Assembly: GCA_036655895.1 (NCBI GenBank)
Contig: JAVVPF010000001.1
Coordinates: 62,001 to 126,000 of the forward strand
Direction of reading: 5' to 3'
Length of the DNA stretch: 64,000 nucleotides
Source of the DNA: Cloacibacillus sp.
Lineage (GTDB): Bacteria > Synergistota > Synergistia > Synergistales > Synergistaceae
Under the pieces are notes generated by a model that ran no database searches, was not told the origin of the DNA, and was given only the letters and a program-made list of their open reading frames with translations. The position numbers were made by a program, and so were the translations under genes. The stretch's first letter is position 1. Every line of letters starts with the position of its first letter. Shown in pieces: positions 10,396 through 30,118 of this stretch.

Positions 10396-10446
10396 AGACG
10401 CCGCACCGTCGTACCTTTGGACCGCATAAGTTCCATGACTATCGCG

Positions 10447-10452
10447 TATAAT
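10447..10452 (+). promoter_or_regulatory. -10 element upstream of rqcH
   Basis: A TATAAT hexamer lies 32 bases before the TTG start, in the short gap after the preceding gene. The -35 is not obvious. Confidence 0.4.
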
Positions 10453-10484
10453 GGGATGTAAACTGTTTATAGGGAGGCGGAATT

Positions 10485-12122
10485 TTGTCATTTGGACCGG
10501 AACTTATCTGGATTTGGACGCGCAGGCTGTCGTCGCTTGCAGGAAGGCGCGCCCAGCGCGTTGACGGCGTGAACAATTCCGCCCTTATCTCATTTGGGTC
10601 GAGCGATCTGCTTCTTTCATGGGGCGCGCAAAACTGCGGCGCCGCTTTGATCTCGCCGCGCGATAAAAAGGCGCTTATGGCCTCGTCCACGCAGACGCCG
10701 CCAATCACCAACGCAATAAAAAGCCACCTGACCGGCGCTCAGCTTTGCGCAGTAGAACAGCTTCGGCGCGACCGTGTGATGCGTTTTGCTTTTCAGAAGA
10801 CCGTAGGGGCGGGTTTTACAACGACGAGACATCTGATACTAGAGGTGATGGAGCGCTACAGCAACCTATTGCTGACGGACGAAGATGGCGTCATTATCGA
10901 AACGGCGAAGCACATCCACCCGGCGGACAACGCATTCCGCACAGTGCTTCCCGGCCTCTTGTATCATTTGCCGCCAGAGTTTGAGGGAGTTTCACTAGAG
11001 GAATGGCTTGCCGCGCCCTCTTCTGAAACGCTGCCAAAGGTGGCGGGCTTTGGCCGGCCGCTATTGAAGATGCTTTCCGCATGGGAACCGGAACGCGCCG
11101 CCGCTCTGCTTGCCGGTTTTTATAAAGACGGCGGTACGGAGGCCTATATAACGCAGAAGGTCGGCAAATACTTCACAGCGCTGCCGCTGCTGCTTGATGG
11201 GGCGGAGGCGGTGGACGAAGATTCAGGACGCGCCGCGGCGCTTGCGCCTCTGAAAGATTCCGCAATAGAAGCCAGGCTGAAAAAAATAAAACAGCATCTA
11301 AACAAAGAGATCGTTAGGCGGGAGCGTCAGTGCGCGGACATAAAGGAGCTGCTTTCCTCCGAAGGTGCGGAAAAATACAGGCGCTGGGGTGAACTGATCG
11401 TGGCGAACCTATGGCAGATCAAGCGCGCGGAGCCAGAGGTGCTGCTGGAAGGCTATGACTCGGAGGGCCGCAAGATTGAGGAGACGGTGCCGATAGAGGC
11501 AAGGTATTCAGTCGCCCAGAACGCGGAACGGTACTTCGCTAAGTATAAAAAAATGACCTCCGCCAAAGAGCACGCGGCAGAACTGCTCGTTGCGGTGGAG
11601 GCGGAGCTTGACGATTTAAACGAAGAGTACGAACTTGCCTGCTGCATGAACGAGGCGGCCGATATAGAAATGATGGAAGAGGAACTGGGGCTTGCGAAGC
11701 TAAAGCCGCAGAAACGCGGGGGTGCGAAGAAAAAAGAGACGCTGCCTCCGCACAAGCGGTTTGAGTTTGAGAATGCGATAGTATTCGCCGGCCTTTCCTC
11801 AAAGGGCAACAGATACGTTACCTTTAGGCTTGCGCAGCCCGACGACGTGTGGTTCCACGCACAGGGCGTACCGGGTTCGCACGTCATCCTGCGCCTTGCC
11901 GCAACCCCCTCCGATGAAGAAAGAGAACGTCTCTATCTGTTCTGTGCCTCTGTAGCCGCCTATTACAGCAAGGCGCGTGCAAACACGCGCCAGAGGGTAG
12001 ATCATACTCTTAGAAAACATGTGAGCGCTATACGCGGCGGAGAGGCCAATGTGACCTATAAGGAATTTTCCACGATAATTGCAGACCCTGACGAATGGAC
12101 TCGTGAAACCAAAGAGGAATAA
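10485..12122 (+). CDS. rqcH: RqcH / NFACT-family ribosome quality control factor
   Basis: A 545-residue homologue of RqcH (Rqc2/NEMF; formerly annotated fibronectin-binding protein A). The NFACT-N domain is recognisable from residue 4 (ELIWIWTRRLSSL) and around 95-135 (DRVMRFAFQK, LILEVMERYSNLLL). Coiled-coil segments follow at about 260-420. The C-terminal NFACT-R domain has DVWFHAQGVPGSHVIL and GEANVTYKEFS. RqcH binds obstructed 50S subunits and recruits tRNA-Ala to add C-terminal alanine tails that mark stalled peptides for degradation. The start is TTG, with AGGGAGG 7 bases upstream. The gene is monocistronic and ends at a strong terminator. Confidence 0.9.
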   Translation: MSFGPELIWIWTRRLSSLAGRRAQRVDGVNNSALISFGSSDLLLSWGAQNCGAALISPRDKKALMASSTQTPPITNAIKSHLTGAQLCAVEQLRRDRVMRFAFQKTVGAGFTTTRHLILEVMERYSNLLLTDEDGVIIETAKHIHPADNAFRTVLPGLLYHLPPEFEGVSLEEWLAAPSSETLPKVAGFGRPLLKMLSAWEPERAAALLAGFYKDGGTEAYITQKVGKYFTALPLLLDGAEAVDEDSGRAAALAPLKDSAIEARLKKIKQHLNKEIVRRERQCADIKELLSSEGAEKYRRWGELIVANLWQIKRAEPEVLLEGYDSEGRKIEETVPIEARYSVAQNAERYFAKYKKMTSAKEHAAELLVAVEAELDDLNEEYELACCMNEAADIEMMEEELGLAKLKPQKRGGAKKKETLPPHKRFEFENAIVFAGLSSKGNRYVTFRLAQPDDVWFHAQGVPGSHVILRLAATPSDEERERLYLFCASVAAYYSKARANTRQRVDHTLRKHVSAIRGGEANVTYKEFSTIIADPDEWTRETKEE

Positions 12123-16538: not shown

Positions 16539-17489
16539 CTACGCTTTTGCCGCGAGCCTGTCCAGCAGCATTGCAATGAGCTTATAAGACATAACCTTCA
16601 CCTTTGGCGAGACCACAGATTCCCTTATCTGCCCCGCCTGCTTTTTGATTTCAGAAAACGCGGCTTCAGTCAGTCGTTCGACGTCAGAAATATTTTCGTC
16701 AAGCAGCGTCGCCGTCTCTTCAAGTTCTACCGGGACGGCGCCTACTGCTCCGGCTACGACCTTTGCGCACCTTTTTTCTGATGGGAGCCTCACCGCGAAG
16801 TTGACAAGCGGAAAATCTATAGAGGCGCGCACGCTGTATTTAAAAAAACAGCTTTTTTCATCAAGAGGCGCCTTTTTGACGCGTATCGCCGTGATGATAA
16901 AATCGCTGTTTTCCTCAACAAGTCCGTTTCTCTCACTGTGTCTTGCTATCAACTGCCCTATCGGAACGACAGAACATTTTCCATCTTCTATCATCTCAAC
17001 CTCAGCGTCGTACAAAAGAAGAGCCGTGGCAGTGTCGGAATAGTAGATGGCTTTACAGGTCTTTGAGTTGGGTATCTGGTGGCACTTGTCGCCGCCGGTT
17101 TTGAAACAGGGCGGAAACGAACTTCTCCACTCGCGTGACTGATTGAAATAGACGCACCTGCGGTCCTGCATTATGTTGCCGCCTATGGTCGCCGTGTTTC
17201 TTATCTGCGGGGACGCCGTCTCCTGCGCGCTTTCTGCAAGCGCCGGAAGATTTTTTCTGATGCCGTCGTTTTCCGCTATCTGTGCAAGAGTGACGCAGGC
17301 GCCTATCGTAAAGGCGGTTTCGTCGGACGTTATCGTTTTACATTCCGCAATGCCGCTTATGTCTATCATATCCGTCCGCGGTTTCACTCCGAGGTGCAAA
17401 AGCGGCATAAGGTCGGTGCCGCCCGCTATTACTCGGCCGTGATATTTTTCGTCTGTAATGTCCTTTAGCGAATCCACTTTGATATACAA
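16539..17489 (-). CDS. FAD-binding subunit of a molybdenum hydroxylase, with HcrB-type [4Fe-4S] insertion
   Basis: A 316-residue protein of the CoxM/XdhB family. FAD-binding motifs are VIAGGTDLMP (about 20) and TATIGGNIMQ (about 99). Directly after the second comes an insertion with four cysteines, 112, 128, 136 and 145 (C-x15-C-x7-C-x8-C; RRCVYFNQS, PPCFK, DKCHQ, KTCKA). This insertion is the hallmark of the beta subunit of 4-hydroxybenzoyl-CoA reductase, where it holds an extra [4Fe-4S] cluster used in reductive chemistry; ordinary xanthine dehydrogenases lack it. The gene is last in the operon, 12 bases after the molybdopterin subunit. Substrate is unknown; the context suggests an imidazole-type product of the lyase. 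Confidence 0.85.
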   Translation of the reverse strand: MYIKVDSLKDITDEKYHGRVIAGGTDLMPLLHLGVKPRTDMIDISGIAECKTITSDETAFTIGACVTLAQIAENDGIRKNLPALAESAQETASPQIRNTATIGGNIMQDRRCVYFNQSREWRSSFPPCFKTGGDKCHQIPNSKTCKAIYYSDTATALLLYDAEVEMIEDGKCSVVPIGQLIARHSERNGLVEENSDFIITAIRVKKAPLDEKSCFFKYSVRASIDFPLVNFAVRLPSEKRCAKVVAGAVGAVPVELEETATLLDENISDVERLTEAAFSEIKKQAGQIRESVVSPKVKVMSYKLIAMLLDRLAAKA

Positions 17490-17501
17490 AAAATCACCCC
17501 G

Positions 17502-19739
17502 CTATATTTTGTTGGGCAGCACGATGAACTGCTCGCAGAGAGGAAGGTTTGTGACCTCCTGCCCGCTGGCTCTTCTTACCGCGTTTACGATAGCTGGCGC
17601 AATTGGCACCGTGCTAAGTTCTCCTACGCTCTTTGCTCCGTAAGGGCCGTCCGGCTCCCAGCCTTCGGCAATGAGCGCGTGGATGCGCGGCATGTCGGCC
17701 ATCAGCGGGATCTTGTAATGCAGAAGGTCTGTTGACATAGGCTTTTTTGCGAAATTGTTTATCTGTATCTGCTCCGTGAGCGTGTATCCCACGCCCTGCG
17801 CCGCGCCGCCCTCTATCTGTCCCTCTACGGTGAGCGGGTTTATCGGCGTGCCTACGTCGACGGCCTCTATCAGGTGCAGGAGGCGTATCGCGTTGAGTTT
17901 TTTATGATATTCCGCCTTGACCATGCAGACAGAGAACGGATTGGGACAGGCCGCCGCTTTGTAGTCTCCCCTGCCGATTATCGTTCCGCCGCGCTGGTTG
18001 AAGAAGACCTCTTTTGCCGCCTCTTTTACGCTGAGATTTTTTTCGCCTGCTATGAACCGGCCCTCTTCAAAGAGCACGGGAGCGTTTGATATGCGCGAAA
18101 GCCTTTCCTGGATCGTGGCTATAAGATCCTGCCCCGCCCGGAGCACGGCGTTTCCGCATATAAAGGTCTGGCTGCTGCCGAATGTGCCGGTGTCGTACGG
18201 AGTGAATTTTGTATCCGCCGCGGTTACTGTGATATCCTCAAGCGGTATGTCCAGCGTCTCCGCCGCTATTTGCGCAAGCATAGTTTCGCTGCCCTGTCCG
18301 ATGTCGGAAGAGCCAACCTGGAGTTCCGCGCTGCCGTCGTCGTTCATTATGATAACAGCCGAGCTGAGTCCCTCTTTTGAGGACGGGCCTGATCCGTGGC
18401 AGGCGAAGGCGACGCCCCACGCCTGTTTTATATCGTCGTTTTCTATCGTAGCTTCGTTTTTTTCTATTTCATTTTTTTTATCAAGGCAGAGTTTGACGCA
18501 CTGCTCTATCTCGCAGCTAGTAAGCGTCAGCTCCGAGCCGGGGAAATGTCCGCCAACGCGGACGTGGTTTTTCAGCCGCAGTTCGATAGGGTCCATATCG
18601 AGCTTTTGCGCGAGCCTGTCTATTATCACCTCTCTGGCGAAGGCAAGCTGCATGTTTCCGTAGCCTCTGAACGCGCCGGCCGTCGCGTGGTTTGTAAGCA
18701 CGCACCGTCCGTCAAAGAAGTAATTTTTGATGCCGTATTGAAATTTTCTTGCGCCGGCGCACAGCACGGTCGGCCCGTGCGTCGTGTATGGGCCGGTGTT
18801 TAATTTATAGTCCGCGTAAAAGGCCTTTATCTCGCCGTCCGCGCCGGCGCCTATCCTCACACGCGCCCTTGCGCCGTGGCGCACTACCGTCGCGGTCAGC
18901 TCCTCTTCGCGTGTGTTCAATATCTTTACGGGTCTTTTGATCTTCTTTGAGAGAAAGACCGCAGCGGGCTGCGAGTGAAGTTGCTGACGCGCGCCGAAGC
19001 CTCCACCGACCGCGGGCTTTATTATTCTTATTTTATTTTCGCGAAGTCCGCAGAGTTCGCTTATAATTCGCCGCTCCTGAAAGATCGTCTGCGAATTGCT
19101 CCATATTGTGATCTCTTTTCCGCTGCTGAAGTCACAGATGCAGCAGGTCGGCTCAATGGCGGTGTGCTGCATAGGCGGGATGTTGAAGGTCTCTTCAAGG
19201 ATAATGTCAGATTCCAAAAAGCCATCCTCAACGCAGCCCTCCGTCACCTCTCTCTTCCAGATGACGTTGTCCTCTGAAAGATGCGGCTCAATAGTTTCCG
19301 CGCCCTCTTTAAGCGCCTCATCTATTGAAAAAAGCGGCTTTTTTTCCTGATATTCTATCTTTACTGCGCGGCAGGCCGCTTCGCAGGCCTCGGGCGAGTT
19401 CGCGGCGATGCACAGTATCCTGTCGCCCGCGCATTTCGGCTGCATAGTAAGTATCTTTTCATCTTTTAAGAGCAGCGCGGAGGGCGGGTTGCCGGAACAG
19501 TTGTACAGCGTCTGCGGCACCTCGTCGGGAAGCAGCGCCGCGATATATCCTGGCACCTTTTCAGCCTCTTTAAGGTCGATTGCGAGTACGAGGGCGTTTG
19601 CGTATTCGCTTCTTATCACCTTCGCGTAGGCCATGTTCGGAAGAGATATGTCGTCAGTGTATACTGCTTTGCCAGAAAGTTTATCGGCGGCTTCCAGCCT
19701 TACCGGCGAATGTTTTACAGTTTTAAAAACTTTTGTCAT
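17502..19739 (-). CDS. Molybdopterin-binding catalytic subunit of a molybdenum hydroxylase (set 1)
   Basis: A 745-residue XdhA/CoxL/HcrA-type subunit. Landmarks: GGGFGARQ in the first molybdopterin-binding region, GAFRGYGNMQ, and GPYGAKSVGE near the C-terminus carrying the Glu used as catalytic base. The ATG at 19737-19739 overlaps the stop of the iron-sulfur subunit gene (TGATG); an upstream in-frame extension is rejected because it lies inside that gene. With its small and flavin partners it forms a three-subunit enzyme that oxidises or reduces a heteroaromatic or aromatic substrate. The substrate cannot be read from sequence. Confidence 0.88.
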   Translation of the reverse strand: MTKVFKTVKHSPVRLEAADKLSGKAVYTDDISLPNMAYAKVIRSEYANALVLAIDLKEAEKVPGYIAALLPDEVPQTLYNCSGNPPSALLLKDEKILTMQPKCAGDRILCIAANSPEACEAACRAVKIEYQEKKPLFSIDEALKEGAETIEPHLSEDNVIWKREVTEGCVEDGFLESDIILEETFNIPPMQHTAIEPTCCICDFSSGKEITIWSNSQTIFQERRIISELCGLRENKIRIIKPAVGGGFGARQQLHSQPAAVFLSKKIKRPVKILNTREEELTATVVRHGARARVRIGAGADGEIKAFYADYKLNTGPYTTHGPTVLCAGARKFQYGIKNYFFDGRCVLTNHATAGAFRGYGNMQLAFAREVIIDRLAQKLDMDPIELRLKNHVRVGGHFPGSELTLTSCEIEQCVKLCLDKKNEIEKNEATIENDDIKQAWGVAFACHGSGPSSKEGLSSAVIIMNDDGSAELQVGSSDIGQGSETMLAQIAAETLDIPLEDITVTAADTKFTPYDTGTFGSSQTFICGNAVLRAGQDLIATIQERLSRISNAPVLFEEGRFIAGEKNLSVKEAAKEVFFNQRGGTIIGRGDYKAAACPNPFSVCMVKAEYHKKLNAIRLLHLIEAVDVGTPINPLTVEGQIEGGAAQGVGYTLTEQIQINNFAKKPMSTDLLHYKIPLMADMPRIHALIAEGWEPDGPYGAKSVGELSTVPIAPAIVNAVRRASGQEVTNLPLCEQFIVLPNKI

Positions 19740-20221
19740 CAAACGCACCTGCTCTCCTTGATTCTTTGAGCGGCAAGCATGACGGCGCTTTCGATTTTCG
19801 TATAGCCGGTGCATCTGCACAGATTTCCGGCCATAGCCGCTCGCACTTCAGAGGGGGACGGCTCCGGCCTCTTTTTCAGGAACGCGGCGGCGGTGAGCAC
19901 CATGCCCGGGATGCAGTATCCGCACTGTACGGCGCCCGCGTCGTAAAAGGCGCTCTGCACTATCTCAATTTCGCGAAAGGCGCCGGCTCCTTCGATCGTC
20001 CGTATGTTTGCGCCGTCTGCCTTAAGCGCCGGCATGATGCACGACAAAACTGGCTGGCCGTCTAGCAGCACGGTGCACGCGCCGCATTCGCCGCTGTCGC
20101 AGCCTCTTTTGCAGCCTTTAAGGCCGGCCTTTTCTCTTATCATATCCAATAGCGTCATATCTTCGGGGACTTCAAATGTAAGCGGCTTGTCGTTGAGGGT
20201 TACGCATATCTTATAATTCAT
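19739..20221 (-). CDS. [2Fe-2S] subunit of a molybdenum hydroxylase (set 1)
   Basis: A 160-residue protein with two [2Fe-2S] domains: a ferredoxin-like one (GCKRGCDSGECGACTVL, fourth Cys in VLSC) and a helical one (CGYCIPGM and CRCTGY). It passes electrons between the molybdenum and flavin subunits. It opens the second half of the operon, after a strong hairpin, and is coupled to the catalytic subunit by a one-base overlap. Confidence 0.9.
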   Translation of the reverse strand: MNYKICVTLNDKPLTFEVPEDMTLLDMIREKAGLKGCKRGCDSGECGACTVLLDGQPVLSCIMPALKADGANIRTIEGAGAFREIEIVQSAFYDAGAVQCGYCIPGMVLTAAAFLKKRPEPSPSEVRAAMAGNLCRCTGYTKIESAVMLAAQRIKESRCV

Positions 20222-20238
20222 ATCAATGACCTCGAAAT

Positions 20239-20267
20239 TAAAGAGGGCTGGGAGGCAGCCCTCTTTA
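20239..20267 (-). terminator. Hairpin between the lyase gene and hydroxylase set 1
   Basis: A perfect 12-base stem TAAAGAGGGCTG/CAGCCCTCTTTA with a 5-base loop. On the minus strand it is followed by ATTTCGAGG, with only short T runs, so it may be a leaky terminator or an mRNA processing/stability element that lowers expression of the downstream hydroxylase genes. Confidence 0.6.
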
Positions 20268-20287
20268 AATGGATTTGGTGGCTCCTG

Positions 20288-21811
20288 CTACTTGATGATT
20301 TTCTCTTTGACCTCTTTGATAAGTTTGCCGCTTTTTACAAATTCGAACGCCTTCTGGATGTCGGGCGATATCGGCCTGTCATTCGTGTAAAGCGGTATCT
20401 CTTTTCTAAAGGCTTGATAGGCCAGTTCCGTGCCTTTGCCAAGCGTAAATTCTTCCTGCATCTTTCTCAGGTCTATCGCCTGACAGGCGTGGATCGTCTC
20501 CATGCCGTAGATGTACTGAAGATTTTCTACGATCTGACGCAGATGCTGCGCCACTATCGAGATGTTGTTGGCGTGGTCCTCGATTGAGCCGGAGAGCGAG
20601 AGATAGTCGACGCTGCACGGGTTGGAGAGGTGTCTGATCTCCGTGTCGAGAGAGGCGAATGTCTTCTGGAATGTGCCGAAGCAATGCGATTCCCCACCGT
20701 CATGGCTGAGGAAGCGCGGCAGTTTTGTGAGCACCGGGTTTGCCAGCCTGATCATACGGTAGCAGGACATGCGCGAGACGTGGGTCAGCACTATCGAGAG
20801 CATCTCCATCGCTGTGGCGAGCGTCGTCGTCTCAAAGTTTGAATTTGAGATGATACGCCTTTCGTCTAAAAGAACGCATGGATTGTCGTCTGTCGAGTTC
20901 ATCTGGATGTATAGATATTTTTCAACGTAGGCGAGAGCGTCTCTCAGCGAACCGTTTACGTACGCGGCGCCGCGGAAACAGAGTGCGTCCTGTACCGGCT
21001 TGCCGGGGTAGGTTTTGTAAATGTCGCTGCCTTCGATGTATTTGCTGACGTTGGCAGCGCTCTCCGTCTGTCCGTCAAGTTTTCTGGCGGCCATAACGGC
21101 TGGGTCGAGCGGCGAGGTGTTGCCGTGCAGACCTTCGAGCGAGAGCGCGGAGATGATGTCTCCCATGTCCGCGAGCTCTCTCAGTTCTTTGATCGCAAGG
21201 GCCGCTTCGCCGGCAGAGAAGGAGCTTGAACTGACGATTGCAAGTCCGTCTTTCGGGCCGAGCGTCACCGGTTCCAGACCGGCAAGCTTGTGAGCCTCGG
21301 CTGACGGCATTCTGACGCCGTTGTAATTTACAAAGCCCTCGCCTATCATTGCAAGGCCGATATGGGAAAGCAGCGTGATGTCCCCTTCTCCGACGGAGCC
21401 TCTTTCCGGCATGACTGGGTGTATTCCGCAGTTCAGCAGCTCCGCGTAGCGTATCGCGATGGCGGGCTGAATGCCGGTGTAACCCTGCAGCAGGCAGTTG
21501 AGGCGTATCGCCATGATGGCGCGCACCTCTTTTTCAGAGGCTTCCGGCTTGATGCCGAGAGAATGCGAATATATGAGCTTGCGGTTGAAGGACTCAAAAA
21601 ATCCCTTCGCAATCGTGTGGTCTTTGTTCCAGCCGACGCCGGTGTTGAATCCGTATACGGGAACGTCCGAGTCGACGAGATCGTAAACGAGCTGTCTGGA
21701 TTTTATAAGTCTTTCCTCCGCGTCGGCGCTTACTTCAACTTTAGCTCCGTTTACAGCAATTTCCCATACTTTTTCGATTGTAAGGCCGTCGCCTGTAAGT
21801 GTAATAGTCAT
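20288..21811 (-). CDS. MIO-less aromatic amino acid lyase homologue, candidate ergothionase
   Basis: A 507-residue member of the histidine/phenylalanine ammonia-lyase fold: YGFNTGVGW with the conserved Tyr53, PERGSVG (135-141), VDYLSLSGSIEDH near the C-terminus. Histidine ammonia-lyases read GSVGASGDL here; this protein reads GSVGEGDIT, so the Ala-Ser-Gly that cyclises to the MIO electrophile is missing. The NGTQ motif that supports MIO is also replaced, by SSSS at 194-197. Known members without MIO include ergothionase, which eliminates trimethylamine from ergothioneine to give thiourocanate; a trimethylammonium group leaves without MIO help. The betaine-type transporter next door supports a betaine substrate. 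Hercynine or another betaine are alternatives. hutU and hutI are not nearby, arguing against ordinary histidine breakdown. Confidence 0.7.
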   Translation of the reverse strand: MTITLTGDGLTIEKVWEIAVNGAKVEVSADAEERLIKSRQLVYDLVDSDVPVYGFNTGVGWNKDHTIAKGFFESFNRKLIYSHSLGIKPEASEKEVRAIMAIRLNCLLQGYTGIQPAIAIRYAELLNCGIHPVMPERGSVGEGDITLLSHIGLAMIGEGFVNYNGVRMPSAEAHKLAGLEPVTLGPKDGLAIVSSSSFSAGEAALAIKELRELADMGDIISALSLEGLHGNTSPLDPAVMAARKLDGQTESAANVSKYIEGSDIYKTYPGKPVQDALCFRGAAYVNGSLRDALAYVEKYLYIQMNSTDDNPCVLLDERRIISNSNFETTTLATAMEMLSIVLTHVSRMSCYRMIRLANPVLTKLPRFLSHDGGESHCFGTFQKTFASLDTEIRHLSNPCSVDYLSLSGSIEDHANNISIVAQHLRQIVENLQYIYGMETIHACQAIDLRKMQEEFTLGKGTELAYQAFRKEIPLYTNDRPISPDIQKAFEFVKSGKLIKEVKEKIIK

Positions 21812-21855
21812 TTAATTATCTCCAATCATTTTTCAATGCGTTTTTTGATAAAGAA

Positions 21856-23421
21856 TTATTCAGAGACCTTATCAAAAAAGAATACTTTGACGAACGATAT
21901 GACTTGCAGCACAAATATGAAGAGCACTACGAAGCCGGCTGCCGCGGCAAGCGCCTTGACGCCGTCCACGCCCTGCGCGCCTCCGCCGAAGGCCGCCATG
22001 ATGATTGCGACTATGCCGACAGATACGCCCCAGACAACCTTGACCTTCGCGGGAGGCTCTGTGCCTATCGGAACGTTTCTCATGCACATTGAACCGATGT
22101 TGGTGAGTGTCGCGTCAGCGCAGGTGATGAAGGAGGCGAGTATTACGAGGATGTTGATAGGCAGTACGATGTAGCCGAGTCCGAACGGAAGGTGCTTGAG
22201 GAACTCCCAGAGCGCCATTATAGCGCCGCCGCTGTTGATGGCGCCCACAAGGTCCGCGCCGCCGGTCATCTGCATGTGCATCGCGCTGCCGCCCCAGATG
22301 GCGAACCAGAATATGCCAAATACGGAGGGAAGGATCCAGTTTACGACCATGTATTCGCGGACGGTCCTGCCGTATGAGAGCATGGCGAGGAATATCCCTG
22401 TGACGGGAGCGTAGCCGACCCAGAAGGCCCAGTCAAAGAGCGTCCATGAACGTGTAAGCGCGGGGCCGCCGATGTCGATCGGGTCAAGTCCCCAGAGCCA
22501 GAAGTTGTGGAACCATTCCGCAAGCCCAGCGGTGCCGATGCGGACTATGAAGAGCGTAGGCCCAGTTACCAGAAGAAGGATGAGCAGTCCGTAGTAGAAC
22601 CACGCGTTGAGCGAGCCTACGATTTTAAGTCCCTTGTCAAGCCCGACATAGGTCGAGAAGGTGAAGGCGCAGATTATAGCGGCGCCGATGCCGATGAAAA
22701 GAGGCAGGCTTTCGGCGATGCCGTATCCGCTTTTGAGGCCCGTGACGGTGAGGGTGATGCACATCGTAAGTCCGGTGGCGAGGCCTATCGTGAGGGCGAG
22801 CATTGAAAGCGTGTCGATTATAGCGGAGGCAAACGGCGTTGTGATACGGTCGCCGAAGAGGGGCTTCAGTGTAGCGGTTACGGTGAGGCTGTCCTTCTTA
22901 TGGTAATAGATATAGGCGACGAGCAGTCCGCACATCGCGTATATGGCGTAGGGTACGAAGGTCCAGTTGTAGTAGGTACGGGCCATGGCGAAGATGGCGG
23001 CCTGTGTTGTGCCGGGCTTTATGCCAAGTGTGTTGAGCTCGCCCCAGACGTTGCCGTAGTAGATGAGCGGTTCATTGACGCCCCATGTTACGATGCCCGT
23101 CGCTATGCCGCCGGTGAGCGTCATTGCGAACCATGTCCAGAAGCCGTATTTAGGCTTCGCGTCTTTGCCGCCGATGCGCATCTTGCCGAGTTTGGTAAAT
23201 GTGGCTACAACTACGAGGACGAAGCTTGCCATGATGGCGAGCTGGTAGAGCCATCCAAAGCTGTCGAGCGACCAGAAGAAAAACAAATTGCTTGCCTTTG
23301 TCAGCGCGTCCTTATCAACGATGCCGACTATTGCCGCGAGCGCCACCACTATGTAGGCGGGAATAAAAACCTCCCAGCGGATGGACTTTTTCAGGTCTGT
23401 TTCTTTCTTGCTTGGATCCAT
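21856..23421 (-). CDS. BCCT-family betaine/carnitine/choline-type transporter
   Basis: A 521-residue membrane protein with about 12 helices. The family core is around residues 325-355: WTLFDWAFWVGYAPVTGIFL followed by SYGRTVREY, and an earlier helix contains GIATGIVTWGVNEPL. BCCT carriers move quaternary ammonium compounds such as glycine betaine, carnitine and choline, either with Na+ or as exchangers. Its place between a molybdenum hydroxylase and the MIO-less lyase suggests uptake of a betainised amino acid such as ergothioneine, or exchange for trimethylamine or another product. An AAGGAGG site precedes the ATG. It is 44 bases from the lyase and 47 from the upstream gene, within one operon. 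Confidence 0.9.
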   Translation of the reverse strand: MDPSKKETDLKKSIRWEVFIPAYIVVALAAIVGIVDKDALTKASNLFFFWSLDSFGWLYQLAIMASFVLVVVATFTKLGKMRIGGKDAKPKYGFWTWFAMTLTGGIATGIVTWGVNEPLIYYGNVWGELNTLGIKPGTTQAAIFAMARTYYNWTFVPYAIYAMCGLLVAYIYYHKKDSLTVTATLKPLFGDRITTPFASAIIDTLSMLALTIGLATGLTMCITLTVTGLKSGYGIAESLPLFIGIGAAIICAFTFSTYVGLDKGLKIVGSLNAWFYYGLLILLLVTGPTLFIVRIGTAGLAEWFHNFWLWGLDPIDIGGPALTRSWTLFDWAFWVGYAPVTGIFLAMLSYGRTVREYMVVNWILPSVFGIFWFAIWGGSAMHMQMTGGADLVGAINSGGAIMALWEFLKHLPFGLGYIVLPINILVILASFITCADATLTNIGSMCMRNVPIGTEPPAKVKVVWGVSVGIVAIIMAAFGGGAQGVDGVKALAAAAGFVVLFIFVLQVISFVKVFFFDKVSE

Positions 23422-23468
23422 AAAAACAACCTCCTTAAGGCTTTATTGGATTATGAGGCTCTCGCCTC

Positions 23469-25694
23469 TTAACGCCTGGTTGATGCCGCTATCTTTGCCG
23501 GTGTGAGCGGAAGCTCCGTAAGCTCCGTACCGAGCGCTCTGTTTACCGCGTTTACGATGGCCGCAGATACCGGTACAGTGCTTATTTCGCCGATGCTCTT
23601 TCCTCCGTAGGGGCCGCCCGGCTCGCCGTCTTCAATGAGCATGATCTCCACATCCGGCATGTCCGGCGCGTTTATCATGTGGTATTTATCGAAGTTGCCC
23701 GCCTTCGGCATTCCATTTTTATCAAAGGCGAGCTCCTCGCAGAGCGCCATGCCTATGCCCATCTGGACGCCGCCGTATATCTGGCCGTCTACGAAATTTC
23801 TGTTGATGCTCTGTCCTACGTCGTGGACGGCGAGGTATTTGTCTATCTTCACCAGTCCAGTAAGTTTGTCCACCGTCACCTGTGCGAAGTGCACGCCAAA
23901 CGACGCGGGGTTGCTTTCGGGCGCGTGTTCGTAATGCGCCTCGATGGAGCGGCGGCTTTTGAGCATTATCTGACGCACCGCCTCTCCTATCTCAATGGTT
24001 TTGCCGTCTATCAGCAGTTTTCCGTCAACAAGTTTCGCTGGCGCGTCGTATATCTTTGAAGCCTCGGAGCAGAGCAGCTTTACGGCTTCTTCGGAAACGA
24101 GACGTGCGCACTCGCCGCAGACGTAGATGACGCGGCTTGCCTGACAGCCTGCGTCGTACGAGCTGTAGTTTGTATCTCCCTCTGTCACCGTTATCTTTGA
24201 AAGCTCTATGCCTGTGGCCTCCGCCGCTATCTGCGCGATCGCCGTCAGCGTGCCGTTGCCCAGCTCGTGCAGCGCGGTGCGCAGTATCGCGGAACCGTCC
24301 TCCAGTATGCGCATGGACATCTGTGTGACGTCATGATAGATGGTTTTATAATAGCCGTTGCCGTGCGTGCAGCAGGCAAATCCGGCGGCTGTGGCAAAAC
24401 GCCCGTCGGCGCTTACGATCGGCTTTTGCAGGTTCTCCCAGTCAAAGCGCCGCGCTCCGCGTTCGAGGCATTCGATGACGCGCGCTTTGCCTATATTGGA
24501 GGCGCCGCTTGGGTCGTTCTCCCATTCGTGAAGGAGGTTTTTCAGGCGGAACTCTACTGGGTCAAGGCCAAGCCTCGTACACATGAGGTCGGTGTGGATC
24601 TCGGTTATCGTATGTATCTGCGGCGAGCCGTATCCGCGGCACGCGCCTGCGGGCGTAGTCGATGTCCTGACGGTGCGCCCATGGTAGCTTAACGCCGGCA
24701 CGCGGTAGAGGCGCGAGGCCTTTTTGCCCATCGCCATCATCACTTTTTTTGTTCCGGAGAGGTAGGCTCCCGCATCTGCCGTTATCTCAAATTTGCGGCC
24801 CGTTATTACGCCGTCTGCGTCAAGCGCCGTTGAGACAGTGCCCAGCACGGCGGCGCGCGTCCTTGTGGAATGCATTGTTTCCGTTCTGTTCGTCGTTATG
24901 AAGACCGGACGCTTCAGCCTCCACGCGGCCCACGCGCAGAGCGGTTCAAAGACGCTCTCCTGTTTTCCGCCGAATGTGCCGCCCATGTTTGCCTTTATGA
25001 CGCGTATCTTTGAAAGAGGTATAGGAAGCACCTGCGCTATGGCGTGCTGTACTCCGAAAAGTATCTGACACGGCGTATGCACCTCTATCGCGTTTGCAGG
25101 ACGCGGCATCGCCAGGACGCAGTGCGTCTCCATCGCCGCGTGATGTATTTTTGGAGTGTATATGGTGTCTGTTTCAACGTGGGCTGCCGATGCGAACGCT
25201 GCCTCTGCGTCTCCGTAGCCGAGCGCGCCTTCAAAATCATCCATGCCGTCTTCGTGCAGCCTATCTGCGTTTTTGCCGGCCTCTTTTATGTCGACGACGG
25301 CAGCCAGCGGTTCGTATTCTACCTTGACCAGTTTGAGCGCGCGGCGGGCTTTTTCTTCCGAATCTGCCAGCACAAGCGCTATCCGGTCGCCGACGTGTCT
25401 TGCGTGGCGAGTGAGGATGGTTTCGTCGGGAAAGTCGTTCTGCCCCGGAAACCATTCGCCGCTGTTGTATTTATTCTGCGGCGCGTCAAGAAAGGTGAGG
25501 ACGATAGCACCCTCTTCTTGTGCAGAAGAGGCGTCTATTGATTTGACGATAGCGTTTGGATATTCTGAAAGCAGCGGAACGCCTACGAGCGTTCCCGCCG
25601 GCAGTTCGTCCGCAAGATAGGTATAGCTGCCGCGCGCCTTTTCCTGCGCGTCGTCGCGCAATATTCTTTTTCCGATATATTTATAATCAGCCAT
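23469..25694 (-). CDS. Molybdopterin-binding catalytic subunit of a molybdenum hydroxylase (set 2)
   Basis: A 741-residue XdhA-type subunit with MGGTFGGKQE, ACRGYGSPQ and the C-terminal GGPYGGKSIGE carrying the catalytic Glu. The start at 25692-25694 (MADYKYIGK) overlaps the FAD gene by 8 bases; the longer upstream frame lies inside that gene and is rejected. It is clearly divergent from set 1 in sequence, so the two sets are not a recent duplication and probably act on different substrates. Closest in style to xanthine dehydrogenase or purine hydroxylase D-type subunits; the true substrate is unknown. Confidence 0.88.
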   Translation of the reverse strand: MADYKYIGKRILRDDAQEKARGSYTYLADELPAGTLVGVPLLSEYPNAIVKSIDASSAQEEGAIVLTFLDAPQNKYNSGEWFPGQNDFPDETILTRHARHVGDRIALVLADSEEKARRALKLVKVEYEPLAAVVDIKEAGKNADRLHEDGMDDFEGALGYGDAEAAFASAAHVETDTIYTPKIHHAAMETHCVLAMPRPANAIEVHTPCQILFGVQHAIAQVLPIPLSKIRVIKANMGGTFGGKQESVFEPLCAWAAWRLKRPVFITTNRTETMHSTRTRAAVLGTVSTALDADGVITGRKFEITADAGAYLSGTKKVMMAMGKKASRLYRVPALSYHGRTVRTSTTPAGACRGYGSPQIHTITEIHTDLMCTRLGLDPVEFRLKNLLHEWENDPSGASNIGKARVIECLERGARRFDWENLQKPIVSADGRFATAAGFACCTHGNGYYKTIYHDVTQMSMRILEDGSAILRTALHELGNGTLTAIAQIAAEATGIELSKITVTEGDTNYSSYDAGCQASRVIYVCGECARLVSEEAVKLLCSEASKIYDAPAKLVDGKLLIDGKTIEIGEAVRQIMLKSRRSIEAHYEHAPESNPASFGVHFAQVTVDKLTGLVKIDKYLAVHDVGQSINRNFVDGQIYGGVQMGIGMALCEELAFDKNGMPKAGNFDKYHMINAPDMPDVEIMLIEDGEPGGPYGGKSIGEISTVPVSAAIVNAVNRALGTELTELPLTPAKIAASTRR

Positions 25695-26529
25695 TGTTTT
25701 CAGCCTCCTCCGCCCTTTTGAGCAGTTCGGCGTAAATATCCATTGCGAGCGCGCGAAGGGCAGACTGTTTGTAGGCGAGCGTCGGGCGTCCAGGTATCTG
25801 ACGCGCCGCAAATGAGGCAAGGGCGTCGGCAAGTTCCGTATGCGCGCCGCGGCAAAGCGCCTCTGAGGCCTCTTCGCTGAATCTGGCGGCGGCGCCAAGC
25901 GTGCCGACAAATACTTTTGCCTGCGTGAATTTGCCGCGCGAGCATACGGCGCAAGCCGCCATGTTTACGCGGGAGATGCTTACCTGTCTCCTGCTGCCTA
26001 TTTTCATAAAGGCGGAAATTGATTTTTGGTCTATTTCGATGAGAAATTCTTTTATCACTTCGCCTGGCGCAAGCGGAGCTTTTCCGCTGCTGGCAAGTTC
26101 TGATACGGGCGCGCGGCGCGCGCCGTTCTTTGATACTATGACGGCGTATGCGTTAAGCGCGCAGAGCGCGGCGGGAGTATCGGCCGCGGGAGAGCCGTTT
26201 GCCACGTTTCCGCCTACTGTGGCTCTTGCGCGTATCTGCTCTGAGCCCATCACGTAGGCGGCGTCAGAAAGCGCTGAGGCGTATCTTCTGACGAGCGGGC
26301 TTTTGTGGAGCGCCGTCATTGTCTCCGAGGCGCCTATTCTGAGTTCTCCGTTTATTATTTCTATTCCTTTAAGTTCGTTTACGCAAGAGATGTCGGCGCA
26401 GAGCGTATCCTGCGTCAAATTTGAGCGGCGGGCTATCATCCAGTCCGTGCCTCCGGCTATAAGTTCCGGCGCATCATATTCGTATGAAAAAAGTTCTGTG
26501 AGCGACGAGGGGCGTACCAGTATGCTCAT
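25687..26529 (-). CDS. FAD-binding subunit of a molybdenum hydroxylase (set 2)
   Basis: A 280-residue protein of the CoxM/XdhB family with LIAGGTDWMI (about 20) and ATVGGNVANGSPAADT (about 101). Unlike its counterpart at the operon end it lacks the four-cysteine insertion, so it should carry FAD only. It transfers electrons from the iron-sulfur subunit to an acceptor such as NAD+ or a ferredoxin. Its start shares a base with the stop of the iron-sulfur gene, and its end overlaps the catalytic subunit. Confidence 0.88.
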   Translation of the reverse strand: MSILVRPSSLTELFSYEYDAPELIAGGTDWMIARRSNLTQDTLCADISCVNELKGIEIINGELRIGASETMTALHKSPLVRRYASALSDAAYVMGSEQIRARATVGGNVANGSPAADTPAALCALNAYAVIVSKNGARRAPVSELASSGKAPLAPGEVIKEFLIEIDQKSISAFMKIGSRRQVSISRVNMAACAVCSRGKFTQAKVFVGTLGAAARFSEEASEALCRGAHTELADALASFAARQIPGRPTLAYKQSALRALAMDIYAELLKRAEEAENNG

Positions 26530-26999
26530 CAGTTTTTCGCCTCAAGGCGGTTTGCCGCCTCTGTTACCGCGTTTATGATGGGGACGTATCCGGTGCAGCG
26601 GCAGATGTTGCCGGCCAGCGCGCGTTTTATTTCGTCTTTTGAAGGATGTGGGTTTTTCAGCAGCAGCGCCTTCGCCGACATTATCATCCCTGGAGTGCAG
26701 AATCCGCACTGGATCGCGTCACAGTCGATAAAGGCCTGTTGGATGACGTCAAGCTCGCCGCTTTTCGCAAGTCCCTCTATTGTTGTGACGGAGGCTCCGT
26801 CCGTCTGGACGGCCGGTACAACGCAGGAGCATACCGCCTCGTCGTTGAGCAGCACGGTGCACGCGCCGCATTCTCCGGCTCCGCAGCCCTCTTTTACGCC
26901 TGTGAGTCCGAAGTCGTTTCTTAACATATCTATGAGGCGTGTATCGGCCTGCACTTCGGCGCTTCGCAGTTCTCCGTTGAGTGTCAAAGAAATAAGCAT
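26529..26999 (-). CDS. [2Fe-2S] subunit of a molybdenum hydroxylase (set 2)
   Basis: A 156-residue protein with two [2Fe-2S] domains: GCGAGECGACTVL with a fourth Cys in CSCVV, and CGFCTPGM with CRCTGY. First gene of the whole leftward operon, with a GGGGGGAA ribosome site and a good promoter just upstream, facing the divergent regulator gene. It links molybdenum and flavin centres in set 2. Confidence 0.9.
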   Translation of the reverse strand: MLISLTLNGELRSAEVQADTRLIDMLRNDFGLTGVKEGCGAGECGACTVLLNDEAVCSCVVPAVQTDGASVTTIEGLAKSGELDVIQQAFIDCDAIQCGFCTPGMIMSAKALLLKNPHPSKDEIKRALAGNICRCTGYVPIINAVTEAANRLEAKN

Positions 27000-27020
27000 A
27001 ACATTCCCCCCTGCCCCAAT

Positions 27021-27050
27021 TTTATATTATGGCCGTCTATCCATCGTCAA
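27021..27050 (-). promoter_or_regulatory. Promoter of the hydroxylase-transporter-lyase operon
   Basis: TTGACG (-35, 27045-27050) and TATAAA (-10, 27021-27026) on the minus strand, 18 bases apart, 22 bases before the first ATG. It sits in the 137-base divergent gap, where the adjacent regulator could bind. Confidence 0.6.
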
Positions 27051-27097
27051 ATTTTTATGAACTGTTTTATTATTGTGGTGTGAGATAGAAAAAGTAT

Positions 27098-27106
27098 TGT
27101 TATAAT
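27098..27106 (+). promoter_or_regulatory. Extended -10 promoter of the regulator gene
   Basis: TGTTATAAT fits TG-n-TATAAT and lies 30 bases before the regulator ATG. No convincing -35 is seen. Confidence 0.5.
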
Positions 27107-27136
27107 TGACAAAGAATTTAGTACGGAGGAATAGGC

Positions 27137-30118
27137 ATGAAACTAGAACTCGCGCTCTTTGGCGAATGCGAAATAATATATGAAGGCAAAAGGGTTCAGT
27201 TTAAATTCCGTAAGGCGGAGGCTCTTTTTTACTATATCGCCTTAAACGGCGGCGCTTCCCGAGACGAACTTAAGACGCTCTTCTGGCCTGAGATGAGCGA
27301 ATCGCAGGCCTCGTCAAATCTGCGCAACGCGCTCTATCTGATAAAATCCCAGATGCCGGAGGCGCTTTTCGCGGACCGTCAAAATGTTCGTGCCGCTGCG
27401 TTCGACGACGGTCTTTTTGCGCTCCAAAGGCTGTGCAGCCCAAAGACGCCGCTACCGGAGATGATATTTTCCACTCCGCTTCGAGACTACTGCGCAAATT
27501 CCGAGCCGCTCAGCGAATGGCTTGAAGGCCGCCGCGCCAAAATAAACGCGGATATCGTAGAGATCATAAAAAAACGCGCCGATGCAGCATACGAGAGCGG
27601 AGAGACTGAAGCTGTGCGCACCGCGCTGGAAGCAGAGAGAAGGCTTGACCCGTTCGACGAATGCTCGATGCTGGAGCTCATGGAGCTGTACCTCAAGAGC
27701 GGAGAGCGCGGCAAGGCGGTTTTAGTTTATAAAAACTTCGCGGCGGCGCTTAAGGAAAAACTTTCTCTTGAACCCTCCGACCGAGCGCAGAAATATTACG
27801 CCTCTATAGTGAACCCCGAGCCCGCGCCAAACGAACTGCTGCGCTTCAGGTGCAGAAAGCGCGAGCTTGCGCTGCTTACCGACGGACTTTCAAAGGACAG
27901 AAGAGAAAAAAATATATTTCTTATAGAGGGAGAGGCCGGCATCGGAAAATCAGCCCTCGTAGACGAAGCGTTAAGGACCTTGCAGCATGACGCGACGCTT
28001 GTACTGGCTACTAAGGCCACTCCGATAGGCGAAGGATGCGGCTATTCCGCGTGGAATAATTTCATGACGGAGGCGCTCTCCGCCTGCGCGGAGCGAGGCG
28101 TCGTGCCTGAAACAGGCGCGCTTGCGGTGCTTGGCGCCATCTTCCCGTGCATCCTTCAAAACGGCGGCGCCAGCTTCAACGCGGACATCATGCGTGCCGC
28201 TGAAATAAACCCCGTCACCGTGGCGTCGCTCATCGCGGAACTTTTAAGGCCGCTTTCTTCTCTCTCTCAAATAGTCTTTATCTTTGAAGACGTGCACTGG
28301 TTTGACGACGAATCGTTCAAATTGATGGGCGCGCTGCTTTCCGCCGCGAAATATCCGTATAAGGCGCTCATCACGGCGAGGCCTGAGGCGGCGGCCGGCG
28401 CTTCGTCTCTTCTGCGGCAGCTGAACGCCGGAGCAAGGATCCACGAATTAAAACTGCGCCCGTTCAGGGACGACGAGATACTTTTTATAAGCCGTTCGCT
28501 TCTTCCTAAAAGCACAATGGAACAAAAGGGCGACGCCTACTTTATACGCGAGAGCGAAGGGCTTCCGCTAATGCTCTTTGAGATGCTGCGAGCGCTGCGC
28601 GAGGACCCGCGTTCTGAATGCGAAAAAGGACTGGGCGTCATGGTTTGGAACAGGATAGGGACGCTCGGCGCCGCGGAAAAAAAGATACTGTCGGCCGCCG
28701 CCGTCTGCATCAGCGGCACTCCGGCCGTTATTTCAGAGATGACCGGCATGACTCAACAGCGCGTCATATATTCGGCAAACGCCCTCATTGCGAGGGGCCT
28801 GCTCTGCGAAAGGCAGGAGGGACGGCAGACCGTATGGGGATTTTTACACCAGAAGCTCCGTGAATGCGTCTACGCCGCGATACCGTATGAGAACCGCAGG
28901 GAGCTTCACGCAAAGGCCGCGGCCGCGCTCAGCGCGCGCTACGCCCCGCAGCGCTGGGACCCGGCGCTTGGCGCTATGCTCTGTCATCATTACATCGAGG
29001 CCGGAGACCGCGTCTCCGAACTGAAACAATATCTTAGCGAATTGATATTTGAGATAACGCTGAACCACGACATTTTCCCGACGCTCTCCGACAGGCTTTT
29101 CCTCTCATGCTCCACGCCGTACAGCAGCCGCGAGGAGACTGAAAAAAAGATAGGGCGCGTCATTGACATACTGGACGAGCTGCGCTGCGAGAACTCAATG
29201 AAGGAAGAGGACTTCGCCCGTCTGGAAGCCACCTCCTATGAGCTGGCCGGCGGCTTTCATATCTTTTGGGGCGAATATGAAAAGGGCAAGGTCTTCACTA
29301 GAGAGGCGCTTTCAATCACAAAGAGATACTGCCTCGACGAGACCTCCGTCTACTGCCTCAAACATTACTGCTACATGTATATCCAGATAGCGGACACAAA
29401 GAACCTGCGCCGCGCGGCGCGCGAGCTGCTACGGCAGTCAAAAAAGGCGGGGCTTGGGCAGTATTTCGCGACTGCGATAAGGTTCATCGGAATGGCCGCC
29501 TTTATGGAATCGGACTACGACCTGGCTGAAAAGATATTCAGGCACTCAATAAAAAAGTTTGACGAACTTCGACTCATTGGACGGCGCTACACTCTCGGCA
29601 TACTCGTCGCAAAATGCTACCTAGGAGAGATAGCGCAAAGACGCGGCCTCTTTGAAGAGGGTGCCGCCTTCTTTGCTGAATGCGCCGCGAAGTGCGAAGA
29701 GATGAAGCTTTTCTGGGGCAGGAGTTATTTTCATATGGCCGCAGCGAACATAGCCGTCGATATGAACGACATGCCGGAATTTTTCCGTCAGATAGACGAC
29801 GCGGTCTCGCTCTTTGAAAGCTGCCGCGGAGGACGTTGCGGCTCGATACTTTACAGCCTGAAGGCGATCGCAGACGCCGAAAGGCTCGATTTTGCCGGCG
29901 CAAAACGCGCCTACGAAAAGGCGGAGCTGCTGATAAAGCATGTACCGAGAATAGAGTGGATGGCGGCGCAGCACTTGGCCGCCGCGTGGATCGCAAGGCT
30001 TTCAGGGTACGATGCTTCGGACGACGCGGCGATGGCCGTGAAGCTGTATGAAAAAATAGGCTTTACGCTGAGGGCGCGCGCGATACGCGAAAAGTTCGCG
30101 CTGGCGCAGGAGCGCTGA
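27137..30118 (+). CDS. Large BTAD/AAA-type transcriptional activator (SARP- or MalT-like), divergent from the catabolic operon
   Basis: A 993-residue regulator. Residues 1-90 form an OmpR-like winged helix (FRKAEALFYYIAL, FWPEMSESQASSNLRNALYLIK). About 95-235 is a bacterial transcriptional activator (BTAD) domain (RRLDPFDECSMLELMELYLKSG-type repeat). An AAA/NTPase module follows with Walker A GEAGIGKS near 268 and Walker B IFEDVHWFDD near 385. The remaining 500 residues are helical, TPR-like repeats that probably sense a ligand or partner. Such proteins are ATP-dependent activators. Position and divergent promoters make it the likely regulator of the leftward operon. GGAGGA precedes the ATG. 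A strong terminator closes the gene. Confidence 0.82.
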   Translation: MKLELALFGECEIIYEGKRVQFKFRKAEALFYYIALNGGASRDELKTLFWPEMSESQASSNLRNALYLIKSQMPEALFADRQNVRAAAFDDGLFALQRLCSPKTPLPEMIFSTPLRDYCANSEPLSEWLEGRRAKINADIVEIIKKRADAAYESGETEAVRTALEAERRLDPFDECSMLELMELYLKSGERGKAVLVYKNFAAALKEKLSLEPSDRAQKYYASIVNPEPAPNELLRFRCRKRELALLTDGLSKDRREKNIFLIEGEAGIGKSALVDEALRTLQHDATLVLATKATPIGEGCGYSAWNNFMTEALSACAERGVVPETGALAVLGAIFPCILQNGGASFNADIMRAAEINPVTVASLIAELLRPLSSLSQIVFIFEDVHWFDDESFKLMGALLSAAKYPYKALITARPEAAAGASSLLRQLNAGARIHELKLRPFRDDEILFISRSLLPKSTMEQKGDAYFIRESEGLPLMLFEMLRALREDPRSECEKGLGVMVWNRIGTLGAAEKKILSAAAVCISGTPAVISEMTGMTQQRVIYSANALIARGLLCERQEGRQTVWGFLHQKLRECVYAAIPYENRRELHAKAAAALSARYAPQRWDPALGAMLCHHYIEAGDRVSELKQYLSELIFEITLNHDIFPTLSDRLFLSCSTPYSSREETEKKIGRVIDILDELRCENSMKEEDFARLEATSYELAGGFHIFWGEYEKGKVFTREALSITKRYCLDETSVYCLKHYCYMYIQIADTKNLRRAARELLRQSKKAGLGQYFATAIRFIGMAAFMESDYDLAEKIFRHSIKKFDELRLIGRRYTLGILVAKCYLGEIAQRRGLFEEGAAFFAECAAKCEEMKLFWGRSYFHMAAANIAVDMNDMPEFFRQIDDAVSLFESCRGGRCGSILYSLKAIADAERLDFAGAKRAYEKAELLIKHVPRIEWMAAQHLAAAWIARLSGYDASDDAAMAVKLYEKIGFTLRARAIREKFALAQER

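Follow-up and report, generated by a model that had tools for sequence, protein, structure and literature searches.

Ergothioneine is a dietary antioxidant, and its loss, along with the trimethylamine that results, has been attributed to a few gut bacteria. A five-step pathway for its breakdown was reportedly reconstituted in vitro by Beliaeva et al. in 2021 (cited in PMC9732360). Its course involves ergothionase, thiourocanate hydratase, and thiohydantoin desulfurase, with hydrolysis as well. The subject here is an operon that probably begins in the same way, found at positions 16539-27136 of a 64,000-nucleotide stretch of DNA (the window) from Cloacibacillus sp. of the phylum Synergistota. 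Another route, in gut bacteria, was described by Feng et al. 2025 (10.1021/jacs.4c09350). As that work is represented in PMC12771579 and PMC13405746, ergothionase is followed by a xanthine oxidase homologue, which cleaves an aromatic C-S bond reductively (PMC12771579); the enzyme is named thiourocanate desulfhydrase and releases H2S (PMC13405746).

The operon in the window joins a lyase of the histidine ammonia-lyase (HAL) family, lacking the triad of enzymes that carry 4-methylideneimidazole-5-one (MIO), to a carrier of the BCCT family and two three-subunit enzymes of the xanthine oxidase family, called here set 1 and set 2. It is probable, at roughly 0.78 for the steps from uptake to urocanate taken together, that the operon is an anaerobic ergothioneine catabolic unit. 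The carrier would import ergothioneine, and the lyase would eliminate trimethylamine to leave thiourocanate, as suggested by its homology to a structurally characterised ergothionase, its conserved residues, and its phylogenetic bracketing. Set 2 would remove the ring sulfur reductively, giving urocanate and sulfide, a step for which gene neighbourhood, published precedent, and the absence of the alternative genes all argue. Urocanate could then be degraded through one or other of the genome's two histidine-degradation gene sets, which lie outside the operon.

This core of lyase, set 2, and BCCT carrier is best read as a new member of the ergothioneine pathway already described, in which ergothionase is followed by an enzyme of the xanthine oxidase family that removes sulfur reductively. 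The likeness to the pathway as reported from Feng et al. is one of description only, and the operon differs from it in belonging to the phylum Synergistota and in adding a second, distinct enzyme of the xanthine oxidase family. It shares its first step with the five-step pathway, but the window genome lacks thiohydantoin desulfurase, and set 2 would stand in for both hydratase and desulfurase. The initial annotation had proposed that a betainised histidine is imported and cleaved and that its ring is then oxidised or reduced. The sequence evidence supports betaine catabolism, specifically that of ergothioneine, well; ring oxidation, in contrast, gives way to a likely reductive removal of sulfur.

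Each of the eight genes is an uninterrupted open frame of the minus strand, and inward from a divergent regulator they follow the order set 2, carrier, lyase, set 1:

27137-30118, plus strand: divergent regulator with BTAD and AAA_16 domains (Pfam), SARP-like, 993 amino acids
27000-27136, no strand: intergenic region between operon and regulator, expected from its position to hold both promoters
26529-26999, minus strand: 2Fe-2S subunit of set 2, 156 amino acids (NCBIfam, xanthine-oxidase-family small subunits)
25687-26529, minus strand: FAD subunit of set 2, 280 amino acids, without a four-cysteine insertion (NCBIfam, XdhB-type)
23469-25694, minus strand: molybdenum (Mo) subunit of set 2, 741 amino acids, candidate thiourocanate desulfhydrase (NCBIfam; clade of lyase-linked homologues)
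21856-23421, minus strand: BCCT carrier, 521 amino acids (NCBIfam)
20288-21811, minus strand: MIO-less, ergothionase-like lyase, 507 amino acids (match to 6s7j/6s7q, trees, residues)
21380-21400, minus strand: segment GSVGEGD of the lyase, aligned with the Ala-Ser-Gly site of MIO enzymes
19739-20221, minus strand: 2Fe-2S subunit of set 1, 160 amino acids (NCBIfam)
17502-19739, minus strand: Mo subunit of set 1, 745 amino acids (NCBIfam; separate clade of nine)
16539-17489, minus strand: FAD subunit of set 1, 316 amino acids (TIGR03195; 1rm6_B the best PDB match)
17055-17156, minus strand: four-cysteine segment of that subunit (C112, C128, C136, C145), predicted [4Fe-4S] site (aligned with 1rm6_B)

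For the Mo gene of set 2, the mechanically called start (25910) lies too far upstream, and the start was taken as 25694. Since neighbouring genes overlap slightly or are separated by at most 66 bases, the eight are likely to form one transcript. The gene order, spacing, overlaps, and subunits given in the initial annotation all hold, and the NCBIfam and Pfam families of every subunit are those it named. Scans of the operon region for promoters and terminators turned up nothing informative; the single sigma-70-like match within 27000-27136 (9 of 12 positions, at 27044-27073 on the plus strand) is not evidence by itself.

The lyase matches PF00221, the family of aromatic amino acid lyases. Among solved structures its best match is the ergothionase of Treponema denticola (6s7j/6s7q), with 497 bits and 48% identity, as against 243 bits for the best histidine ammonia-lyase. 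The two proteins share membership of the HAL family, the lack of the MIO triad, and the residues N62, K63, K383, and D389, although the structure of the T. denticola enzyme has been characterised and the window protein is known from sequence alone. Where MIO enzymes carry Ala-Ser-Gly, the window lyase has Glu-Gly, one residue fewer (GSVG-E-GDI), so the initial annotation was right to call the triad missing. When 102 ergothionase-like sequences were compared with 22 HAL sequences, N62 appeared in all 102 and K63 in 101 of the former, and neither in any of the latter, while K383 appeared in 95 of the 102, the HALs having Tyr at that position. Separation of the two groups is nearly complete at N62, K63, and thirteen further positions, at every one of which the window lyase has the ergothionase residue. 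Present in it, as in other ergothionase-like enzymes, and absent from HALs are N62, K63, D389, R366, N416, and K383.

Phylogeny leads to the same place. In a maximum likelihood tree, the window lyase and the characterised ergothionase share a clade that has full support and stands apart from the HALs, so that the lyase does not group with the MIO enzymes, and a larger FastTree (with local supports) gives the same grouping, the loci in both trees being mostly those found through the lyase. Near relatives of it, at 70-72% identity, come from Synergistaceae. The window lyase is bracketed by two lineages with independent evidence for ergothioneine. On one side is a lyase of Peptoniphilus that shares 87% identity with that of T. 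denticola and whose operon also contains set 2 and a BCCT carrier. On the other are lyases of Paenibacillus that adjoin genes for thiourocanate hydratase, at 1020.8 bits against a cut-off of 930, and for thiohydantoin desulfurase, at 601.5 bits against one of 440. The identification of the window lyase as ergothionase-like is well supported, and because the trees, the active-site residues, the neighbourhoods, and the two bracketing lineages agree, so is ergothioneine catabolism. An ordinary histidine ammonia-lyase was rejected, since the MIO triad is missing and the clade is separate.

What surrounds such lyases was counted within 7.5 kb at 101 ergothionase-like loci, with 20 loci of MIO histidine lyases from the same phylum as control. 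A set-2 Mo gene was found at 67 of the 101 and a BCCT gene at 64, and neither at any of the 20, counts to be read knowing that the loci are not phylogenetically independent and that the sample leans to genomes found through the lyase. The pairing might on that account be a by-product of the search. Synergistota were therefore searched independently with the Mo subunit of set 2 alone, and 30 of the 34 homologues with at least 45% identity adjoin a MIO-less lyase (of the four exceptions, two lie at loci truncated by a contig end), so that explanation was rejected. The neighbourhood is conserved within Synergistota and well beyond: the core extends to spirochaetes and many Firmicutes, and lyase and set 2 were seen together in spirochaetes, Clostridium, Sporomusa, Peptoniphilus, Acidaminococcus, Blautia, and Clostridium symbiosum ATCC 14940. 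The set-2 Mo subunits of all these groups make up one clade of 65 lyase-linked homologues. C. symbiosum has been reported to possess ergothionase activity (PMC13405746). The distribution of the ergothionase/xanthine-oxidase-family unit is thus wider than the few genera suggested by BLAST in PMC13405746.

Several observations bear on the reaction of set 2. It occurs at 67 lyase loci and a gene of the thiourocanate hydratase type at 13, but both at none; in Paenibacillus the hydratase-type gene takes the place of set 2. The window genome is 99% complete, and no match to thiohydantoin desulfurase (NF058529) was found in it, which led to the rejection of the Paenibacillus-type route. Both of its urocanases fall far below the cut-off for thiourocanate hydratase (NF058530), whereas HutU, HutI, and FtcD exceed their cut-offs at two places. 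A genome with two sets of HutU, HutI, and FtcD but no thiohydantoin desulfurase, so far as can be told from its genes, can make use of urocanate and not of the thiohydantoin, and the sulfur must leave before urocanase acts. In Sporomusa, Acidaminococcus, and a spirochaete, moreover, Hut genes adjoin the lyase and set 2 themselves (L088, L102, L103, L136). From its exclusiveness with the hydratase-type gene, the missing desulfurase beside two hut sets, and the hut genes next to lyase and set 2, set 2 is probably the best candidate for thiourocanate desulfhydrase, likened to the enzyme by neighbourhood and published description and not by sequence. Its Mo subunits have G-N-G, G-C-G, or the like in place of the usually conserved G-Q-G motif, which set 1 retains. 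Neither set reaches the curated cut-off for XdhA (780), set 1 scoring 544.9 and set 2 503.3.

The second complete hut set of the window genome lies beside a BTAD-type regulator (9118-10662 of locus L010 and neighbouring genes). Its histidine lyase has Ser-Ser-Gly rather than Ala-Ser-Gly at the MIO site.

A xanthine-oxidase-family enzyme encoded with ergothionase describes set 2, and in four genomes of Synergistota it describes set 1 as well. Perhaps, then, the roles are exchanged: set 1 would be the thiourocanate desulfhydrase, and set 2 would perform some other step, such as hydroxylation of the ring of urocanate or thiourocanate. The published reaction is reductive, and it is set 1 that has an FAD subunit of the reductase type; also, homologues of set 1 adjoin ergothionase-like lyases in gut Firmicutes. 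However, the C. symbiosum genome lacks set 1, as do most of the ergothionase loci surveyed, at which set 2 is nearly universal, and a reductive enzyme of the xanthine oxidase family does not require ferredoxin, as urolithin C dehydroxylase uses NADH (PMC12771579). An exchange of roles is accordingly improbable.

The carrier is similar over its full length to several kinds of solved BCCT carriers (the trimethylamine transporter 8zw8, BetP, CaiT), and the best of these matches is 8zw8 (192 bits), the next being BetP (172 bits), a carrier of glycine betaine. It scores 276.2 bits against TIGR00842, below the cut-off of 407.55, and the pocket motif of BetP, WAWWISWSP, reads WAFWVGYAP in the window carrier. 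A role in taking up ergothioneine, and perhaps in exporting trimethylamine too, would fit. The transporters of sister modules vary, being DcuC-like at L194, of the sodium:neurotransmitter type at L201, and a sodium:solute symporter at L170.

Certain considerations weigh against the proposed unit. The specificity of a BCCT carrier is not readable from its sequence, the neighbourhood counts share the dependence already mentioned, a homologue of set 1 adjoins a lyase with MIO (L163, in genome G143), and hercynine or some other histidine betaine might suit the window lyase better. In an extended form of this last point, the main substrate would be not ergothioneine but the betaine of some aromatic amino acid, hercynine or another, and the acrylate that the lyase forms from it would be modified by the molybdenum enzymes. 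The window lyase is, after all, only 48% identical to the characterised one, several lyase paralogues coexist within single genomes (four in G036, for example), and hercynine would need no desulfurisation. The window lyase nonetheless keeps the conserved residues, and it keeps the set-2 partner that also accompanies lyases nearly identical to that of T. denticola, while genes specific to thiourocanate adjoin lyases of another branch. We regard a main substrate other than ergothioneine as unlikely.

Because several lyase paralogues can occur in one genome, their substrates have probably diversified. The fourth ergothionase-like paralogue of G036 (L064, 9642-11141, on contig C13) has motifs close to those of the T. 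denticola enzyme, with one stop counted inside the matched stretch. MIO-less lyases at L194 (11470-13155), L196 (11871-13547), and L198 (11884-13698) adjoin a set-2 enzyme, and the signal-peptide-like N-terminal stretch in at least two of them (L194 and L196) suggests an exported ergothionase. A parallel module at L201 (5189-11828) and L202 (8173-15045) combines another type of MIO-less lyase with a transporter of the sodium:neurotransmitter type and a molybdenum enzyme 40% identical to set 2. In this type of lyase the triad is deleted, leaving GSVGY in the copy of the window genome.

The pairing of lyase and molybdenum enzyme is not new in itself, since it is already described, in what is relayed of Feng et al. 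2025, and widespread. The initial annotation, to which the combination with two hydroxylase sets was unfamiliar from described pathways, is corrected to that extent. No description of two hydroxylase sets was found in the literature searched, and, as far as that literature goes, set 1 and its link to other lyases are undescribed; what is new and unexplained is set 1 and its connection to MIO-less lyases made of two subunits. The two sets are indeed different enzymes, as first annotated. Their Mo subunits lie in separate clades (nine members in that of set 1) and are only 29% identical, which excludes recent duplication.

The likeness of set 1 is to 4-hydroxybenzoyl-CoA reductase (1RM6), with which it has in common its three-subunit makeup and the four cysteines of the FAD subunit. 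C112, C128, C136, and C145 each have an aligned counterpart among the four cysteines of the reductase's beta subunit (1rm6_B), in keeping with the extra cluster first annotated, here predicted to be [4Fe-4S], and the motif recurs in nine of ten set-1 FAD subunits scanned, the exception being L044. The additional [4Fe-4S] cluster of the reductase is associated with an inverted electron flow, according to Unciuleac et al. 2004 as cited in PMC12771579. Set 1 was nevertheless not accepted as a true 4-hydroxybenzoyl-CoA reductase: it has no CoA-thioester context, and all three of its subunits score well below the curated cut-offs (beta, TIGR03195, 193.9 against 404.55; alpha, 390.2 against 994.55; gamma, 163.2 against 257.8). 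The predicted extra cluster suggests a reductive reaction.

At 70% identity or more, the Mo subunit of set 1 occurs in four of 188 Synergistota genomes, all of one family and always in this operon, with lyase and set 2 (the window genome, G137, G138, and G170). Such confinement would fit a set 1 that either repeats the work of the desulfhydrase or was swept into the operon as an unrelated gene, and both possibilities are compatible with the steps from ergothioneine to urocanate. More distant homologues, though a sample of 392 genomes from the Blautia order had them in just one, are independently tied to lyases of the HAL family in Blautia, Lawsonibacter, Cuneatibacter, and Dethiosulfatibacter (L152, L170, L171, L172, L207), which makes redundancy or chance association less likely than not. 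The partners are ergothionase-like paralogues in two Blautia genomes and one Lawsonibacter and a two-subunit MIO-less lyase in Cuneatibacter (L170) and, in an apparent operon, in Dethiosulfatibacter (L207). The partner is repeatedly of the HAL family, yet not always the same lyase, and since it is a MIO lyase at L163, the substrate of set 1 need not derive from ergothioneine. The common theme is most likely an aryl- or imidazole-acrylate substrate. Tentatively, then, and as the least certain part of the scheme, set 1 may serve as an accessory enzyme that uses an electron path of the 4-hydroxybenzoyl-CoA reductase type to reduce an imidazole-acrylate produced by a MIO-less lyase, perhaps the two-subunit lyase also encoded in the window genome. 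If this were so, it would represent a new reductive reaction for the xanthine oxidase family and hint at further betaine substrates.

Two such two-subunit lyases lie outside the operon in the window genome (L012, 8107-10544, and L013, 9413-11756), and others occur at L044, L045, L094, L170, L206, and L207, each subunit constituting part of the HAL fold. Three of the 188 Synergistota genomes have one, set 1 being present in all three, and in G137 and G138 the operon of the window type opens with it. It is possible, though the odds are somewhat against it, that set 1 and the two-subunit lyase form an undescribed second branch, in which the lyase would cleave another histidine-type betaine or a related compound and set 1 would process the product. 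Anaerobes would in that event hold a family of modules built of MIO-less lyases and xanthine-oxidase-family enzymes, each with its own transporter, ergothioneine breakdown being one of them. At L206, the genes that follow one two-subunit pair encode a protein of the S-Me-THD family, which matches thiohydantoin desulfurase weakly, and a beta-Ala-His dipeptidase.

The divergent BTAD-type regulator is probably a sensor of some compound in the pathway. Homologues with 42-53% identity stand divergently beside the same operon at L046, L047, L049, L050, and L052. Close to the operon of G137 (L205, 11571-20000) are genes for a CoA-transferase of family III (matched best by L-carnitine CoA-transferase, though under the cut-off), a hydroxyacyl-CoA dehydrogenase, and related proteins, which suggest a wider region of betaine metabolism in that genome. 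The window genome (G000) also carries, on contigs C4, C11, C25, and C38 (L209-L213), five genes of the MttB methyltransferase family without in-frame stops, and for that reason demethylation of other quaternary amines is possible.

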